This document shows, in pieces, positions 43,082 through 50,247 of a DNA stretch of 64,000 nucleotides. The notes beneath the pieces were generated by a model. That model was not told where the DNA came from. It searched no databases and worked only from the letters and a program-made list of their open reading frames with translations. This DNA comes from Hellea sp. (lineage in GTDB: Bacteria > Pseudomonadota > Alphaproteobacteria > Caulobacterales > Maricaulaceae). The position numbers and the translations under genes were made by a program. Position 1 is the stretch's first letter. Every line of letters begins with the position of its first letter. Location: contig JABDKG010000042.1 of NCBI GenBank assembly GCA_013002305.1, positions 1 through 64,000 on the forward strand. The letters are read 5' to 3'.

Positions 43082-45211
43082 CTACTCGTCGATGGTTTTG
43101 TAAAACTCTTGATCACGGCCGCTATGGGCTTCGCCAATGACATAGGCGCGAATGGCCTCAGCTGTTTCGGCGTCATAAACTTTTCCAAAATTGGGCATAC
43201 CGTTTTCGGCCAGCAGGCCCTCACGAACCACCATTTGCCAGGTTTCCGCATCCGCCGTGACGCCTGAATAACGCAGGTTTGGCGTCAGGCCCGAAGCAAA
43301 AGCATGATCGCCGTGACAGACGGCGCAGCTATTGGCATAGGCGGTCACACCCTTGGCTAGCAATTCGTCGCTAATCTCGACGGGCTCCGGCAGGTCAAAT
43401 TCCGGCATGGCCGCGTCAAGCGGTGCCGGAAGCGATCCGTCTGCGCCGAGTTTGAACACCAGCACGCGGCCGGAATTAAAATCGCTACCTGATGGCAAGA
43501 CTGCGCCAAAGCCAAGCACAAATGATCCGCCATAGCCTGAAGCCACCGCAACATATTGAACGCCATCAAGCTCATAGGTAATCGGCGCCGCGCCTATGCC
43601 GGACTGGGTGAAATATTTCCAAAGCTGGTCGCCGGTCTTGGCGTTATAGGCCGCGAAGTGCGCGTCTGCCGTGCCTTGGAAAACCAGATTTCCGCCGGTC
43701 GACAAAATACCGCCATTCCACGGGCCGTTATGCTCAAAGGTCCAGGCTTCTTCTTGCTTAACCGGATCCCAAGCCAGCAGCCGGCCTTTGACCATGGATT
43801 TGAGCGCTTTGAACGTCGCGCGGTCAGTCGGGAGTAGGGCGTAGGAGAAATCCGTACCCGTGTTCCAAGTGCCCGGCGTATGTTTGTAATTGGCGCGGTC
43901 GCCATAAACCCAAGGGGCTTCCTGTGCCGGAATGTAAACAAGTCCGGTGTCCTGCGAATATGACATGGGGTGCCAGTTATGGGCACCGAGCGGGCCGGGC
44001 AGCTGAAGATAAGGCTCTTTGCCATAATAACGCGCGGCCTCTATCTCGACGGGACGACCTGTTTCTTCATCTATATGGGTCGCCCAGTTCACTGGAACGA
44101 AATTATTGGCCGAAATAAATTCGCCGCTTTCCCGGTCGATCACATAGAAGAAGCCGTTTTTGGGGGCCTGCATGATGACCTTGCGGGTTTTGCCGTCGAT
44201 CTCAAGATCGGCCAGCATCAAATGCTGCGTGGCTGTATAATCCCACGTCTCTCCGGGCGTGGTCTGGTAATGCCAAACATATTCGCCCGTATCGGGCCGA
44301 ACCGCGACCATGGAGGAAAGGAACAGGTTGTCTCCACCATCGGGACTTCGGATCGATTGGTTCCAAGGGGAACCATTGCCGACGCCAAAATAAAGAAGAT
44401 CCAGGTCAGGGTCATAGGCCATGGCGTCCCAAGCGGTGCCGCCGCCGCCGGCTGTCCACCATTCGCCGGTCCAGGTCTCGGCGGCCATAGCCATCGTGTC
44501 GTTTTCAAACCCGTCTTCCGGGTTGCCCGGCACGGTGTAGAAGCGCCAATCCATATCGCCGGTTTCGGCGTCATAAGCGCTGATATATCCGCGCACGCCC
44601 AGTTCCGCCCCGCCATTACCGATAATCACTTTTCCCTTAACGACCCGCGGCGCGCCGGTGATAGTATAGGGCTTGGATTTATCGATTGTCAGCTTGTCCC
44701 AAATGACATCGCCGGTTTTGGCGTTAAGCGCGACCAGACGGCCATCAATTGTGGCGGTGAATATTGTGTCGCCCCAAAGCGCGACCCCGCGATTGACGAT
44801 GTCGCAGCAGGCATTACTGGCCTGTACCATGTCGATTTCGGGCTCCCATGTCCAAACAGGCGCGCCGGTTCGCGCATTCATGGCGTGGACGACATTATAG
44901 GTAGAGGTCACATACATCATGCCGTCATGGACAATCGGGGTGGCTTCGATACCGCGGCTTGAATCTAGATCATAAGACCAAGCTAATCCCAAATTGGCGA
45001 CATTGTCGGCGTTCACAGTGGCCAGCGGCGAAAAGCGCTGTTCATCATAGGTCCGGCCATAAGATAGCCAGCTACTATTATCGGCATTGATAATTTGCGC
45101 GGAGCTTACGCCGCTATTTGTTTCACCGGATGTTGCCGGTTCTTTTTCTTTGGAATTACAGGCGGCTAGAGCCAGCATCGAAATGGCCGCGGTTAAAACT
45201 AATTTTTGCAT
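43082..45211 (-). CDS. PQQ-dependent quinohemoprotein alcohol dehydrogenase, lipoprotein
   Basis: 709 residues. Lipobox LAAC (Cys18) anchors it to a membrane. The beta-propeller has adjacent Cys135-Cys136 (NACCDIVNRG) forming the vicinal disulfide near PQQ, and ETWDYTATQ with the catalytic Asp. The C-terminus carries a cytochrome c domain (CAVCH at 629-633, Met672 in NGMPNF). It oxidises an alcohol or related substrate in the periplasm and passes electrons to c-type cytochromes. The substrate is unknown and no PQQ synthesis gene is nearby. It may belong with the HupE, PpiC and DUF3604 genes upstream. Confidence 0.92.
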   Translation of the reverse strand: MQKLVLTAAISMLALAACNSKEKEPATSGETNSGVSSAQIINADNSSWLSYGRTYDEQRFSPLATVNADNVANLGLAWSYDLDSSRGIEATPIVHDGMMYVTSTYNVVHAMNARTGAPVWTWEPEIDMVQASNACCDIVNRGVALWGDTIFTATIDGRLVALNAKTGDVIWDKLTIDKSKPYTITGAPRVVKGKVIIGNGGAELGVRGYISAYDAETGDMDWRFYTVPGNPEDGFENDTMAMAAETWTGEWWTAGGGGTAWDAMAYDPDLDLLYFGVGNGSPWNQSIRSPDGGDNLFLSSMVAVRPDTGEYVWHYQTTPGETWDYTATQHLMLADLEIDGKTRKVIMQAPKNGFFYVIDRESGEFISANNFVPVNWATHIDEETGRPVEIEAARYYGKEPYLQLPGPLGAHNWHPMSYSQDTGLVYIPAQEAPWVYGDRANYKHTPGTWNTGTDFSYALLPTDRATFKALKSMVKGRLLAWDPVKQEEAWTFEHNGPWNGGILSTGGNLVFQGTADAHFAAYNAKTGDQLWKYFTQSGIGAAPITYELDGVQYVAVASGYGGSFVLGFGAVLPSGSDFNSGRVLVFKLGADGSLPAPLDAAMPEFDLPEPVEISDELLAKGVTAYANSCAVCHGDHAFASGLTPNLRYSGVTADAETWQMVVREGLLAENGMPNFGKVYDAETAEAIRAYVIGEAHSGRDQEFYKTIDE

Positions 45212-45232
45212 AAAACCCTCCCCAGAGTTTTC

Positions 45233-46204
45233 TTAAACTATATAATCTTTGAGCCGGTCTATCACCCAGAACATCGCAATCCCCCCGATCGCATAGGTCA
45301 TGACGGCTTCTGTTATTCGCGTACGATTGAAATGCATTTTCCCAATTATCGCAAGGAAAATGACCAATAGCGCAACGATTAGGAATTGCCCAAGTTCGAC
45401 GCCGATATTGAACAGTAAAAGCGCAAGCAGCTCCGTGCCTTGCGGCAGGCCAATATCCGAAAGTGCAGAGGCAAAGCCGCAGCCATGGATCAAGCCGATA
45501 ATAAAACCAATCAAATATGGACGGCTGGCGGCAAGGCCAATTTCGCCGCGCCGTTTTCGCATGATCTCGACCGCGAGCAGGACAATGCTGACGGCAATCA
45601 GGATTTCGACCGGACGTGTTGGTATATTGATCAGGCCAAATGCCGCCAGAGCCAGCGTCAAACTATGGGCTATGGTAAAAGAGGTCGCGACGCCGATGAT
45701 CTGACGTCTATTCACAAGCAAGACGAGGCCGATCACAAATAACAGGTGGTCCCATCCCAATAAAATATGCTCAACGCCGATCCACAAATAGGCCGAGGTT
45801 TTCGCGCCTTCCGCCGTGGAAAGATTAATCGACGGGGATGAGGGTTTTAGAAGTTGGCGTTTAATCTCGCCGTCCAGATAGGCAATCTCGACAAACACAT
45901 CGGTGAGCGTATTTTCCAGTCCAGCGATTTCGATAATGCCGGAGTGGAGATCACATGTGACCTCAAAATTATCGACCAATGTCCCGGAGCCAAAACTGCG
46001 TTTAGGCTCTGTCGTTTCGCAGCCTACTGGAAAAACCGGTTCGAGGCGCAGGCGTTTGCCGGCATTAACCGGCTGTTTCCAGCTAACGTAATATTCAGCG
46101 TCCGCCGTCTCGGTAATTTTTAGAAATGCGGGGCGCACTTCATGGGCGCTGGCCCACTGGGCGCAAAAGAATATACAAATAGCCGCGATATAAAACCGAG
46201 TCAT
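45233..46204 (-). CDS. HupE/UreJ-type membrane protein with an N-terminal periplasmic domain
   Basis: 323 residues. A signal sequence (to about residue 20) leads a beta-rich domain to about residue 145, then six transmembrane helices containing GVEHILLGWDHLLF, TSFTIAHSLTLALAAFG and GLIHGCGFASALSDIGLP. These helices match the HupE/UreJ_2 type (PF13795-like). The classic HupE/UreJ proteins transport nickel; this longer variant is not characterised. It overlaps the PpiC gene by one base, so it is coupled to it. Confidence 0.85.
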   Translation of the reverse strand: MTRFYIAAICIFFCAQWASAHEVRPAFLKITETADAEYYVSWKQPVNAGKRLRLEPVFPVGCETTEPKRSFGSGTLVDNFEVTCDLHSGIIEIAGLENTLTDVFVEIAYLDGEIKRQLLKPSSPSINLSTAEGAKTSAYLWIGVEHILLGWDHLLFVIGLVLLVNRRQIIGVATSFTIAHSLTLALAAFGLINIPTRPVEILIAVSIVLLAVEIMRKRRGEIGLAASRPYLIGFIIGLIHGCGFASALSDIGLPQGTELLALLLFNIGVELGQFLIVALLVIFLAIIGKMHFNRTRITEAVMTYAIGGIAMFWVIDRLKDYIV

Positions 46205-47028
46205 TATTCGCCTTCTGGAACAACGACTTCATATTCATTGAGAAGGTCGGTCAGGCGCTTTTGATTATTTTCGCGCAGAGTCTCTTCTTGCCAGACTTCC
46301 GCTATTTCTTCGCGGGCTTGTTCAAAGCTGGGAACGGAGCGATTGGTCCGGCCTTCGATTTTGACAAGGTGGAGTCCGAATGAGCTTTCGATCGGGCCTT
46401 GCCAAACCGGCTTGGGCGGAAGTTCGAACAGGCTATTGGCGAAATTATATCCCATTTTTCGCGCCAATGATGTCTGGTCAATTAAAGGAAATTCGACCTG
46501 CTCAATAAACGGGTCGCCAATCTCGCGCCAGTTTTCATCATTTACAATGGCCAAGGCTTCGCGCGCAGCGGCCTCGACATCATCATGTTCGCCGGGGCTA
46601 AAGTAAATATGGACAAACCGGCGCTGGGCCGGCCAGACGAATTTTTCGCGATTATTCTCAAACCATTCGCGCAGCTCTTTTTCAGGCGGCAAGGCGGGCG
46701 GGGTGTCTTCATTGAGCATAAAACGCATTTTTTGCGCCAGCCGTCTGCGGATGATTGTGTCATCGTCTTCTAGGCCAAGACGCCGGGCCTCACGCATCAA
46801 TATCTTCTCTTCAGCATGGGCAAATAAAAGACCGTCAATATCGGCATTGGTCGGTTGGCGCTTATTTTCAGCGGCAAAAATTGCGGCTTGCCGCTGAATT
46901 TCAGCTTTCGGAATGACGATGGTATATTCTGTCTTGGTTACCCAGCGTTCCCACAGGCCATGGCCCATGAACAGCGCTATGCCGAGCAATACAAAATGGA
47001 CGAGTGGCTCTCGCATTAATTTCGTCAT
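46204..47028 (-). CDS. Membrane-anchored PpiC-type peptidyl-prolyl isomerase
   Basis: 274 residues. A single N-terminal helix (about 8-25) is followed by a SurA-like helical part and a parvulin domain (about 110-235), with QRRFVHIYFSP, LAIVNDENWREIGD and GPIESSFGLHLVKIEGRT. It would fold extracytoplasmic proteins from the inner membrane. It lies between the DUF3604 gene (17-base gap) and the HupE gene (one-base overlap), which suggests a dedicated client. The family call is firm; the client is inference. Confidence 0.88.
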   Translation of the reverse strand: MTKLMREPLVHFVLLGIALFMGHGLWERWVTKTEYTIVIPKAEIQRQAAIFAAENKRQPTNADIDGLLFAHAEEKILMREARRLGLEDDDTIIRRRLAQKMRFMLNEDTPPALPPEKELREWFENNREKFVWPAQRRFVHIYFSPGEHDDVEAAAREALAIVNDENWREIGDPFIEQVEFPLIDQTSLARKMGYNFANSLFELPPKPVWQGPIESSFGLHLVKIEGRTNRSVPSFEQAREEIAEVWQEETLRENNQKRLTDLLNEYEVVVPEGE

Positions 47029-47045
47029 AGGTTCAAACTTTTGCT

Positions 47046-48968
47046 TTATTTCGCGTCATACCAAATCGGAGAAGTATAAGCGCGTTCTTGCAGAGTTGTC
47101 GGATGGTTTGGATTTGGCGGTGTGCCGGCTCGAAGTGCGTCCCATGTCGACCAGCGACAGGTCGGGTTTTCCAAAACACGAACATAGTATGCTGCCGATA
47201 TTGAGCTATCAAAATCGGGGTCCTGCCAGAAAGTTTTAATTTCCGGATCACCGGCATCGGTCGAAATAGAGCAATTGCTTAGATCAACACTGGCGCCATT
47301 GTCAGGGCATCGATGTGTTACCGGGTCAGGCGAGAGCCCATCGGAACAGCCAATGTCATAAAGCATTTCTTGCGCTTTGCCGTCAGCATGCCAGACTTTG
47401 ACAAGCTGGATACGCTGCAATGGCGCACTGCGCGCGTCGCGGGCCGCCCAAACAACAAAGCCGGGGGCTTCATCATTTTTCTCAAGCGTGCCGCCCATCG
47501 GGACGCCGCCGGCATAGGCTTTGTTGACAAGATCGCTATCGCCAAGCAGTTCTGCGTCATAATCATATCCGCCAAACATGCGCACCTTAATGCGCGGGCC
47601 GGTTGTGGCGTAGGTTTCTTTGCGCGCCATGCCGTCAAATATAGCTTCGCGAGTATTTTCCGGTGCCCAAACAGCGGCCAGTCCTGAGGCACCCCAATAG
47701 GGAAACCAATATTCGGAATGGGTCGGTAGCTCAACGCCCTCCCAAGTCTTCTTACCGCCTGGCGGAACTGAGCCGCGGGTTTCGGGCGTCGCGTCCAAAA
47801 TGCCAACCTTCGACCAGTAATTTTTTTCGTCAAATGCGCCGCCGGCCACATGGCTGTCAGATGCGCCGATCAGGCCAAATTTATAAGGGTTCACGCCAAT
47901 ATCTTGCTCGATTTCGATGCCGCGCGCCAATGACTCGCGTATGTAGCTTCCGTTGATTCTTGATTTTACAGTTGAACTTAAGAGATATTCGTAAATTTCA
48001 AAATCGGCCCATTCATCATTGGGTGACAATGCGGGATGCGTTTCTGATGTGCCCTTTACCTGAGTCATTTCTACGATCGGTTCGTTGCGCATGCGCTGGG
48101 CTGCGTATTCAGCTGTCAGGGGATCGCCGTCAAACGTCATGAGGTCAAACATTTCGCCGTCTGAAACATTGGAATTGTGGGGAATGGCCAACACTTCATT
48201 ACCGGTCGCGCGCTGACTATCCATCCAGTCCCATAAATCTTCCGGATTGACCGAGTCGAGCGTCGCAAATAGACGATCCGGCGCGCTGTCTTTAAATACC
48301 ACATTTCTGTGTAAATTGCCGCCGATAAAATCGTTGCCGCCATGACGACCCTGGGTCACCGCCGTATATTCGTAGGCCGCGAAGGTCGTTAATTTGCCGG
48401 GCTCATAATGCTTATTGGCAACATCAATAGCATTTTGCCAGGTCGCGTCGATCAAATCGCGGTCATAGACTTCAGGGTAGGGAACGCCGCTGCGAACCGA
48501 TCCGCCCATTTTTCCAAACGCGCCTGTGACTTTATCAGGATCGGTCCCGAACATGTCTTTGGCCCATTCAACCTCTGAAAGCGGACTTTCAGGGTCATTC
48601 ATAGCCGGCAAAATGCCCATATAGGCACCATGATCTGTCGCTGCTACAAAATCCAGCGGATCGCCCCACAGGCTGATCTCGTAGCCGGCAGGGTGCCGGA
48701 TCGTTTCGCCTTTGGCAAATCGATACACATCATCCGGCGTATTGCGGACATTAAAAATATAAGCGTCGAAAGAGTTTTTGGTGTGAATATGCGTGTCCCC
48801 GAAATAGACATTGGTCGCGAAGCCATCCGCGCCCGAGTCGGCGCTATCATTTGATATTGTGGCTGCGGGAACCGGCTGGGTTTTCGAGGTCGCGTCGTCT
48901 CCACCTCCTTCTTGCCCGCATGCTGTCAAGGCAATTACGGCGCAGCTAAGGCCCAATAAATTTTTCAT
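47046..48968 (-). CDS. DUF3604 lipoprotein with a PHP-like metal motif
   Basis: 640 residues from the ATG at 48968, with GGAGGGG 4 bases upstream; an ATG 23 codons earlier lacks this and would spoil the signal. Lipobox LTAC gives Cys17. The DUF3604 domain begins YFGDTHIHTKNSFDAY, with the H-x-H (His60, His62) of PHP-type metal-dependent phosphoesterases, then DHGAYMGILPAMN and a conserved ASDSHVAGG. It may hydrolyse a phosphate ester or related bond outside the cytoplasm. It is followed by PpiC and HupE-type genes. Confidence 0.85.
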   Translation of the reverse strand: MKNLLGLSCAVIALTACGQEGGGDDATSKTQPVPAATISNDSADSGADGFATNVYFGDTHIHTKNSFDAYIFNVRNTPDDVYRFAKGETIRHPAGYEISLWGDPLDFVAATDHGAYMGILPAMNDPESPLSEVEWAKDMFGTDPDKVTGAFGKMGGSVRSGVPYPEVYDRDLIDATWQNAIDVANKHYEPGKLTTFAAYEYTAVTQGRHGGNDFIGGNLHRNVVFKDSAPDRLFATLDSVNPEDLWDWMDSQRATGNEVLAIPHNSNVSDGEMFDLMTFDGDPLTAEYAAQRMRNEPIVEMTQVKGTSETHPALSPNDEWADFEIYEYLLSSTVKSRINGSYIRESLARGIEIEQDIGVNPYKFGLIGASDSHVAGGAFDEKNYWSKVGILDATPETRGSVPPGGKKTWEGVELPTHSEYWFPYWGASGLAAVWAPENTREAIFDGMARKETYATTGPRIKVRMFGGYDYDAELLGDSDLVNKAYAGGVPMGGTLEKNDEAPGFVVWAARDARSAPLQRIQLVKVWHADGKAQEMLYDIGCSDGLSPDPVTHRCPDNGASVDLSNCSISTDAGDPEIKTFWQDPDFDSSISAAYYVRVLENPTCRWSTWDALRAGTPPNPNHPTTLQERAYTSPIWYDAK

Positions 48969-49124
48969 ATTCCCCTCCATTTCACCCTTGTAGGGTTTGT
49001 TAGCATTATCGCTAAAAGGCCATGGAATAGGTTGCAAGAAAAAACTCGAACTTGGCCTGAATATTCAGTATTGGCTAATCATTCAAATCTAGAATCGAGC
49101 CCGTAATAGAGGATGATTTTCGCT

Positions 49125-49557: not shown

Positions 49558-50247
49558 ATGCCCCTTAATACTGACAAATCCGTCTCGGTAACCGACGCGA
49601 TAATGACCCGTATCACTTGCCGCGGGTTTCTGGATAAGCCTGTTCCCAAGGTCGAGCTCGAGCAAATATTTGAGACGGCTCGCAGAACGCCATCAGGCGG
49701 CAATCTACAGCCCTGGCGTGTTCATATTATGACCGGAAAGACGCTGGCCAATTTTACAGAGGCCTGTATGGACAATGTTAAATCGGCGGTGATGGAAGGC
49801 GAGACTTTTCCGGCTTATCCGAGCCCGCTCTGGGAACCGCAGCGTAGCTGGCGCTATAAGCTCGGTGAGGACATGTATAGCCTTTTAGATATTTCGCGCG
49901 ATAACAAACTTGGCCGGCTCATGTGGCTGGCCAATAATGCGCGATTTTTTGGAGCGCCGGTTGGCATTATCGTCACGGGCAACATCAAACTTGGCATGGC
50001 GCAGCATATGGATATTGGCATTTATTTGCAGACCATCATGATGCTCGCCCGCGAGGCCGGATTGCATACGGCGCCGCAAGGTTGGTGGCGTCGCCATCCA
50101 CAGTCGATCATCAAATTTCTCAACGTGCCGGATGACGAGCATGTGCTAGTCGGCATGGCGTTAGGGTATGGCGATCCTGATGCGCCTGTGAATAATTTAT
50201 GGGCGGATAGAGCTGAACTCGAAGAACTGGTTCACTTTTACGACTGA
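49558..50247 (+). CDS. Nitroreductase family protein
   Basis: 229 residues with the nitroreductase fold: R-x-T-C-R-G-F at the FMN phosphate site, RRTPSGGNLQPWRVHIMTG and the C-terminal VGMALGYGDPDAPVN. These FMN enzymes use NAD(P)H to reduce nitro compounds, quinones or related substrates in the cytoplasm; the real substrate is unknown. The gene has no clear ribosome site and is followed by a terminator hairpin 5 bases after the stop. Confidence 0.9.
   Translation: MPLNTDKSVSVTDAIMTRITCRGFLDKPVPKVELEQIFETARRTPSGGNLQPWRVHIMTGKTLANFTEACMDNVKSAVMEGETFPAYPSPLWEPQRSWRYKLGEDMYSLLDISRDNKLGRLMWLANNARFFGAPVGIIVTGNIKLGMAQHMDIGIYLQTIMMLAREAGLHTAPQGWWRRHPQSIIKFLNVPDDEHVLVGMALGYGDPDAPVNNLWADRAELEELVHFYD

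Follow-up and report, generated by a model that had tools for sequence, protein, structure and literature searches.

How exported metalloenzymes acquire the correct metal has been called 'not always clear' in PMC10550928, which answers the question for Bacillus by TerC proteins; these load Sec-exported enzymes with metal and co-precipitate with the chaperone PrsA. A second described group are the anglerases, in which Ang-1 or Ang-2 domains are joined to HupE/UreJ-2 permeases (PMC12537917, Nat Commun 2025; PDB 9gce). According to that paper, Ang-1 has binding constants of 74 nM for Cu and 220 nM for Ni, Cu being bound via His1, 8F1B (ZrgA) is the closest fold to Ang-1, and the HupE/UreJ-2 domains are termed known nickel permeases, for which metal capture and uptake into the cell are proposed. 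Here we analyse a four-gene locus (positions 43082-48968) of Hellea sp., situated in a stretch of 64,000 nucleotides that is called the window throughout (assembly GCA_013002305.1, contig JABDKG010000042.1, positions 1-64,000). Its first three genes, coding for a DUF3604 lipoprotein, a PpiC-type foldase and a HupE-type permease, form a strongly conserved trio, which is followed by the gene of a pyrroloquinoline quinone (PQQ) dehydrogenase. We give about an even chance to the proposal that PpiC and the His1-bearing HupE represent a two-gene helper, which folds and metal-loads exported DUF3604 hydrolases of the PHP fold. By analogy, the pair is proposed to correspond, in Gram-negatives, to TerC and PrsA of Bacillus, PrsA likewise being a parvulin. 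The proposal is based on the conserved linkage of the genes, the occurrence of one pair beside many enzymes and invariant residues of ligand type, as well as on the PHP fold seen in a structure model and the anglerase-like architecture predicted for HupE. All four genes are located on the minus strand in the following order:

47046-48968, minus strand: DUF3604 (PF12228) lipoprotein, 640 amino acids from the ATG, with a PHP domain at about residues 53-458 and a C-terminal Ig-like domain at about residues 459-640

46204-47028, minus strand: membrane-anchored PpiC/parvulin-type foldase, with PF13145 Rotamase_2 at residues 114-240 and an N-terminal hydrophobic segment recognised by eye

45233-46204, minus strand: HupE/UreJ-2 permease (PF13795) with a periplasmic beta-sandwich domain and His as the likely mature N-terminus

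43082-45211, minus strand: type II quinohemoprotein (PQQ plus heme c) alcohol dehydrogenase, lipoprotein (PF01011, TIGR03075)

The gene set, the families and the spacing, i.e. 17 bases between DUF3604 and PpiC, a 1-base overlap of PpiC and HupE and 21 bases between HupE and the dehydrogenase, had already been given in a first-pass annotation made from the letters alone, and they agree with the open reading frame coordinates and the profile matches. The DUF3604 protein passes the curated cut-off of PF12228 by far (700.6 bits versus 20.4, E 2e-210, positions 3-590 of 591); an alternative TTG start at 49037 is likewise open. PpiC reaches 56.6 bits versus the cut-off of 27 for PF13145 (E 6e-15) and HupE 145.3 bits versus 24.5 for PF13795 HupE_UreJ_2 (E 2e-42), while the dehydrogenase matches the PQQ family PF01011 with E 4e-78, contains a C-terminal cytochrome domain and scores 662.8 bits with TIGR03075 (cut-off 480). 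The lipobox-like N-termini of DUF3604 and the dehydrogenase were judged by eye.

Conservation of the trio in other genomes had been set beforehand as the refuting test of the first-pass annotation, and the trio was found to be strongly conserved, which leaves its idea standing. Among 150 genomes of the window's order, including the window's own, DUF3604 was matched in 43 and PF13795 in 76. In 42 of these 43 genomes DUF3604 has a PF13795 gene no more than 5 kb away, G144 being the exception, and some PF13795 gene is carried by 34 of the 107 genomes without DUF3604. All three genes were found at 48 loci, which are stretches fetched from the order and include close relatives, hence not independent events. 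The sequence DUF3604-PpiC-HupE on one strand recurs in 44 of these trios, the other four being of mixed strand, and because of this recurrence the gene order is regarded as more than chance. The bit scores of the three proteins covary across the 48 loci (rho 0.84-0.91), a correlation that is confounded by species relatedness. Moreover, the trio exists at three depths of DUF3604 divergence, namely a window type with about 48-68% identity, a second type with 37-39% and a divergent type. The nine divergent genes (L145, L175-L182) also precede PpiC and HupE; they can be aligned to the window protein only piecewise, with 21-38% identity in the best aligned pieces, and include one that ends at the contig end (L182) and one that is broken in frame (L181). 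A further set of 80 named loci, all picked for DUF3604, comprises Alpha- and Gammaproteobacteria, Acidobacteria and others. Both partners are present at 34 of them, 31 times within 500 bases of a DUF3604 gene, and PpiC adjoins HupE in 32 of the 34, while two loci have PpiC only. The window's genome (G000) itself contains two more DUF3604 genes on contig C41 (L162, 5936-8020 and 16351-18354), which are about 51% and 28% identical to the window copy, and no PpiC-HupE pair was found in the stretch read around them.

The numbers of enzymes and pairs per genome were compared in the 47 genomes behind the named loci, many of which are drafts by title. DUF3604 matches ranged from 1 to at least 22, with up to 48 candidates at first look; these counts include pieces of one gene, and the high ones are lower bounds. 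Linked PpiC-HupE pairs were present in 43 of the 47 genomes, mostly as a single pair (one in 32 genomes, two in nine, three in one and four in one), and the number of pairs was not correlated with the number of DUF3604 matches (rank correlation rho 0.08, p 0.57). Among the genomes without a linked pair, G495 has PpiC and HupE on different contigs, in G463 PpiC adjoins DUF3604 (L056) while HupE is only divergent, and G494 has no strong PpiC match and a HupE gene cut by the contig end. Furthermore, 20 additional pairs were read, which were chosen as second pairs or from DUF3604-rich genomes (19 from the 47-genome set and one from G012). Within the 8-16 kb read, eleven of them show no DUF3604 gene; two of the eleven belong to genomes that have just one or two DUF3604 matches. 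One pair for many enzymes, frequently standing alone, is what would be expected of a shared maturation factor rather than of a subunit, although it may be taken for independence as well. The genomes with more than 20 matches are some Pseudomonadales, Acidobacteria and other drafts; they include G454, G458, G462, G464 and G492 (the genomes of L044, L050, L055, L057 and L103), with 33-48 first-look candidates.

It might also be that the trio is an inherited old operon, whose three proteins share a regulation or a role under stress without depending on each other. Linkage alone proves no dependence, and the PpiC-HupE pairs without adjoining DUF3604 would fit such an explanation. However, the linkage holds across deep DUF3604 divergence and across phyla, and DUF3604 is rarely found without its partners, i.e. 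in one of the 43 genomes of the order, while four of the 47 genomes have no linked pair, two of these being without both genes. We therefore consider this explanation improbable.

The AlphaFold2 model of the DUF3604 protein (pLDDT 89.8) points to a PHP-fold enzyme. On structural comparison, PHP proteins come first, namely 3e38 with Z 15.4 (rmsd 3.5 over 230 residues) and 2anu with Z 14.8 (rmsd 3.6 over 211 residues), far above unrelated rows with Z below 8; the match of residues 459-640 to Ig-like folds also stays below Z 8 and may reflect merely a common arrangement. The residues H60, H62, D112, H113, E200, H220, H264, D371 and H373 are each kept in 146-148 of 148 sequences, the divergent ones included, and their HxH, DH, E, H and DxH pattern is presumably that of the PHP metal ligands. 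Model and residues support DUF3604 as a PHP-fold hydrolase that is probably metal-dependent. The fold and the ligand pattern are common to the model and PHP-fold phosphoesterases (3e38, 2anu, EndoQ and the PHP domain of PolIII), whereas the identity over the aligned part is only 13-18% and DUF3604 differs by its predicted export and the extra Ig-like domain. No solved structure is related to DUF3604 by sequence at E up to 1. Weak similarity to the CehA/McbA profile (NF038032) was detected in 29 of 41 DUF3604 proteins at E up to 1 (best E 3e-5), but the cut-off of 80 bits is missed by the window protein (16.5 bits) as well as by a divergent relative (28.7 bits). The CehA/McbA proteins are carbamate hydrolases, for which export is likewise predicted, a periplasmic location was found in one strain and four histidines are important for activity; in contrast to DUF3604, no HupE or PpiC partner is mentioned for them in the accessible parts of the source (PMC8292978). 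In the open-licence PubMed Central literature, DUF3604 appears in one incidental mention, a table row in a Chlamydia transposon study, PF12228 is not mentioned, and no description of the trio was found. At two loci (L205, 4923-8408, and L206, 4891-8398), the DUF3604 gene ends head-on against genes that by eye resemble those of the zinc-uptake proteins ZnuB and ZnuC.

The HupE protein of the window is predicted from sequence and model (pLDDT 89.0) to have the architecture of an anglerase, with an N-terminal histidine of metal-binding type placed on a permease. It shares with the anglerases the PF13795 permease and ZrgA as top structural match, and probably also the signal peptide and the N-terminal His on a beta-sandwich. 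The N-terminal domain matches ZrgA (8f1b) with Z 9.9 (rmsd 2.8, 103 residues) and PA4063 with Z 9.0-9.5, both of which were solved with zinc, whereas Cu-bound Ang-1 (9gce) itself reaches just Z 7.5 (rmsd 2.6 over 98 residues). When the HupE profile was run against the sequences of solved structures, the single match had E 1.2 and was taken as chance. The likely cleavage site reads A-S-A|H-E; this mature N-terminus comes from inspection and alignment and not from a cleavage predictor, and of 81 aligned sequences 75 have His at this position and five have Asp, while one has a gap there. Inside the permease, H146, D152 and H153 are invariant (81 of 81). Metal binding of the window HupE is a prediction, and the main text of the anglerase paper mentions neither DUF3604 nor an isomerase and deals with uptake, not with the supply of exported enzymes (PMC12537917).

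The first-pass annotation had regarded HupE as a metal or substrate channel, of which the metal part is retained, while the protein is better taken as a metal-capturing permease of the anglerase type. A channel function for the substrate or product of DUF3604, such as phosphate, sulfate or an alcohol, is suggested by the co-encoding only; the invariant residues of metal type, together with N-domain-like structures that were solved with Zn or Cu, argue against it, and we regard it as very improbable.

A different role would be metal acquisition. HupE would then carry a transition metal into the cytoplasm, DUF3604 would act outside the cell by setting free this metal or an ester that binds it, and the part of PpiC would be limited to folding DUF3604. 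Such a role is in line with the capture and uptake proposed for the anglerases and with the naming of HupE/UreJ-2 domains as known nickel permeases (PMC12537917). The neighbourhoods of DUF3604 bear on it as well. From 128 script-picked open reading frames at the 80 named loci, eight were dropped (two near-copies and six long or overlapping ones), and the remaining 120 gave matches to 124 Pfam families, the commonest of which occurs in just 4 of 120. Among these commonest families (3-4 of 120 each) are amidohydrolases, enoyl-CoA hydratases, TonB receptors, sulfatases and acyl-CoA dehydrogenases. TonB receptors near DUF3604 (4 of 120, and one by eye in L184) would fit metal acquisition. However, no metallophore family was among the 25 neighbour families listed, even the commonest ones are rare, and 1 to at least 22 DUF3604 matches stand against mostly one pair. 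Thus, we hold metal acquisition as the main role to be unlikely. A fixed DUF3604 substrate could also not be deduced from the 120 neighbours, in which no single pathway stands out.

In the proposed folding and metalation station, DUF3604 would be exported unfolded and metal-free, and the membrane-anchored parvulin PpiC would assist its folding on emergence in the periplasm. HupE, with its N-terminal histidine domain above a membrane metal permease, would capture or release a transition metal for the PHP site, and a single pair per genome would serve all DUF3604 copies irrespective of their location. The mature DUF3604 protein may then hydrolyse an ester-type bond in the periplasm or at the outer membrane, and its alcohol product may be oxidised by the co-encoded PQQ dehydrogenase in members of the window's genus and in some of their relatives. 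We infer the dependence of DUF3604 folding and metalation on the pair, the outward or lateral delivery of the metal, its identity and the substrate. The first-pass annotation had already suggested an exported, metal-dependent hydrolase served by a folding protein of its own and by a channel for metal or substrate. The fold model, the conserved residues and the linkage speak for such an enzyme, its metal dependence being probable, for the folding helper and for a membrane protein that handles metal.

Several points weigh against the folding and metalation station. The evidence for a link among the three proteins is genomic and modelled, not experimental, and the linkage in 42 of 43 genomes does not represent 42 independent events, because many of the genomes are closely related. 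G144 has DUF3604 but no PF13795 match, and the draft genome G487 contains 12 DUF3604 matches but no pair, having neither a strong PpiC match nor HupE. The reverse case was found when 16 of the 62 DUF3604-distant HupE loci were read, in which PpiC-HupE without DUF3604 occurs in G015 and G110, while the remaining 14 show no PpiC. In G110, the third gene next to the pair codes for a TPR-sulfotransferase without visible signal peptide. Stand-alone pairs can be read also as independence from DUF3604, five of the 81 HupE sequences have Asp instead of His at the likely mature N-terminus, and the uptake model proposed in PMC12537917 would not alone feed a periplasmic enzyme.

The fourth gene of the locus encodes a close relative of the type II quinohemoproteins. 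The phmmer match to 1kv9 extends over nearly the full length including the cytochrome domain (E 1e-228), and 1yiq and 1kb0 are matched likewise; the window protein differs from these three by its lipobox-like N-terminus and its position in line with the trio. It contains the heme motif CxxCH (CAVCH) at residues 629-633, a vicinal Cys-Cys at 135-136 and the active-site stretch W-D-Y-T at 323-326, which is the same in 1yiq and 1kb0. In lanthanide-type PQQ dehydrogenases, the second position behind the catalytic Asp is occupied by a further Asp, while W-D-Y-T is calcium-type. This further Asp is absent here, and by this rule the idea that HupE supplies the PQQ enzyme with a lanthanide was rejected.

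In the first-pass annotation the dehydrogenase was part of the system; it remains as a recurrent neighbour but not as a core member, since only 9 of the 48 trios of the order have it at a distance of up to 4 kb, six of them directly adjoining. This also excludes the four genes as one fixed unit. In the window and four congeners it is in line with the trio, whereas in G035 it is divergent and adjoins DUF3604. Regulator-like and aldehyde dehydrogenase genes are situated between the divergent dehydrogenase and the trio in G010 and G074, and TonB-receptor-like and AraC-like genes (by eye) in G159. Three congeners with the trio (L185, L186, L188) have the dehydrogenase not adjoining it. Eight genomes of the order, the window's included, contain a dehydrogenase of the close type (64% identity or more), four times by the trio and four times away from it, in two of the latter beside a ThDP-type and a PaaZ-like gene (by eye). 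A weak PQQ-type relative 2.6 kb off the trio in L141 was excluded from the count. Outside the order, the dehydrogenase about 4 kb from DUF3604 in G182 and G411 was also not counted; zinc-transporter-like and other genes are situated between the two, and no PpiC-HupE pair was found in the stretch. Upstream of the window trio, a nitroreductase-family gene (49558-50247, plus strand) is divergently oriented. No clear operon boundary emerged from a consensus scan for promoters and terminators, which gave 11 promoter-like sites versus 6.1 (sd 2.4) in shuffles and 9 terminator-like sites versus 9.3.

The dehydrogenase also leads to a substrate pathway as an alternative explanation, in which DUF3604 as an ester hydrolase feeds an alcohol to the PQQ dehydrogenase and the four genes serve the catabolism of alkyl or aryl esters (sulfate, phosphate or carbamate). 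The proximity of the dehydrogenase to 9 of 48 trios and the weak profile similarity to carbamate ester hydrolases of the CehA/McbA type are in favour of it. In addition, G010, G035, G074 and G099, all of one family (4 of 48 loci), encode an alkyl sulfatase at most 5 kb from the trio, and an aldehyde dehydrogenase is encoded near the trio in G010, G074, G099 and two congeners of the window (L127, L130). These neighbours suggest that some DUF3604 proteins release an alcohol. The earlier idea that DUF3604 supplies the dehydrogenase with an alcohol receives some support from these clusters of alkyl sulfatase, PQQ dehydrogenase and aldehyde dehydrogenase, which occur in another family of the order. 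On the other hand, 39 of the 48 trios are without dehydrogenase, the enzyme is away from the trio in the three congeners and in half of the genomes with the close type, and the window has no alkyl sulfatase beside its trio. The alkyl sulfatase of its genome is on another contig (C97; L174, 5689-14339), together with a GMC oxidoreductase, an aldehyde dehydrogenase and an Amidohydro_3 protein. Hence, the substrate pathway appears somewhat unlikely to us as an explanation of the trio. It is compatible with the maturation of DUF3604 by the pair, but it assigns DUF3604 a single role.

Alkyl sulfatase matches were found in 91 of the 150 genomes of the order (88 over the cut-off). In one genus (G001, G006, G031, G075, G120, G125) the gene is about 37-54 kb from the trio and was not counted as linked. 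Since the sulfatase is near the trio at just 4 of 48 loci, the view that the trio generally serves to degrade alkyl sulfates was rejected. In L126 (2833-15651) and L137 (8620-19899), genes for alkyl sulfatase, PQQ alcohol dehydrogenase, a Crp-type regulator, aldehyde dehydrogenase and DUF3604-PpiC-HupE are clustered, in L126 additionally with an Amidohydro_3 lipoprotein. This cluster is a candidate for a periplasmic route from alkyl sulfates to fatty acids.

Returning to the folding and metalation station, the likeness to TerC with PrsA would be one of function. In Bacillus subtilis, the TerC proteins MeeF and MeeY are membrane metal transporters that metalate Sec-exported enzymes, and they co-precipitate with a post-translocation chaperone (PMC10550928). 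The window permease is not a TerC protein (PF03741) but belongs to PF13795, so that the likeness would be functional only. Further differences are that the TerC system is Gram-positive and not bound to one enzyme family, whereas the DUF3604 system is known from gene linkage alone. A wider role is hinted at by G015, a genome without DUF3604 match, in which PpiC-HupE runs in line into an arginase-family gene (L189, 5594-9012). The encoded protein has a signal-peptide-like start and the motifs GGDHS, DAHYD and SFDVD, which hints at other clients of the pair. It is possible, though in our estimation doubtful, that PpiC and the His1-type HupE act as a general outward-acting metalation and folding station of Gram-negatives, in which one pair serves many DUF3604 enzymes and variants serve other exported metalloenzymes.

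The core idea with which the analysis of this locus started is right in outline, with the dehydrogenase as optional neighbour. If the proposed function of the pair is true, it would provide a dedicated, gene-encoded answer to the metalation of exported enzymes in Gram-negatives and a role for the newly described anglerases. It would also be of practical help in studying a family of hydrolases of which marine and soil bacteria carry up to tens of copies in a single genome. If the more general station exists, DUF3604 would represent a large class of secreted metallohydrolases, which exceeds 20 copies in some Pseudomonadales, Acidobacteria and other drafts. Its members could then not be obtained in active form from hosts without the pair, and this would account for the lack of characterised members.

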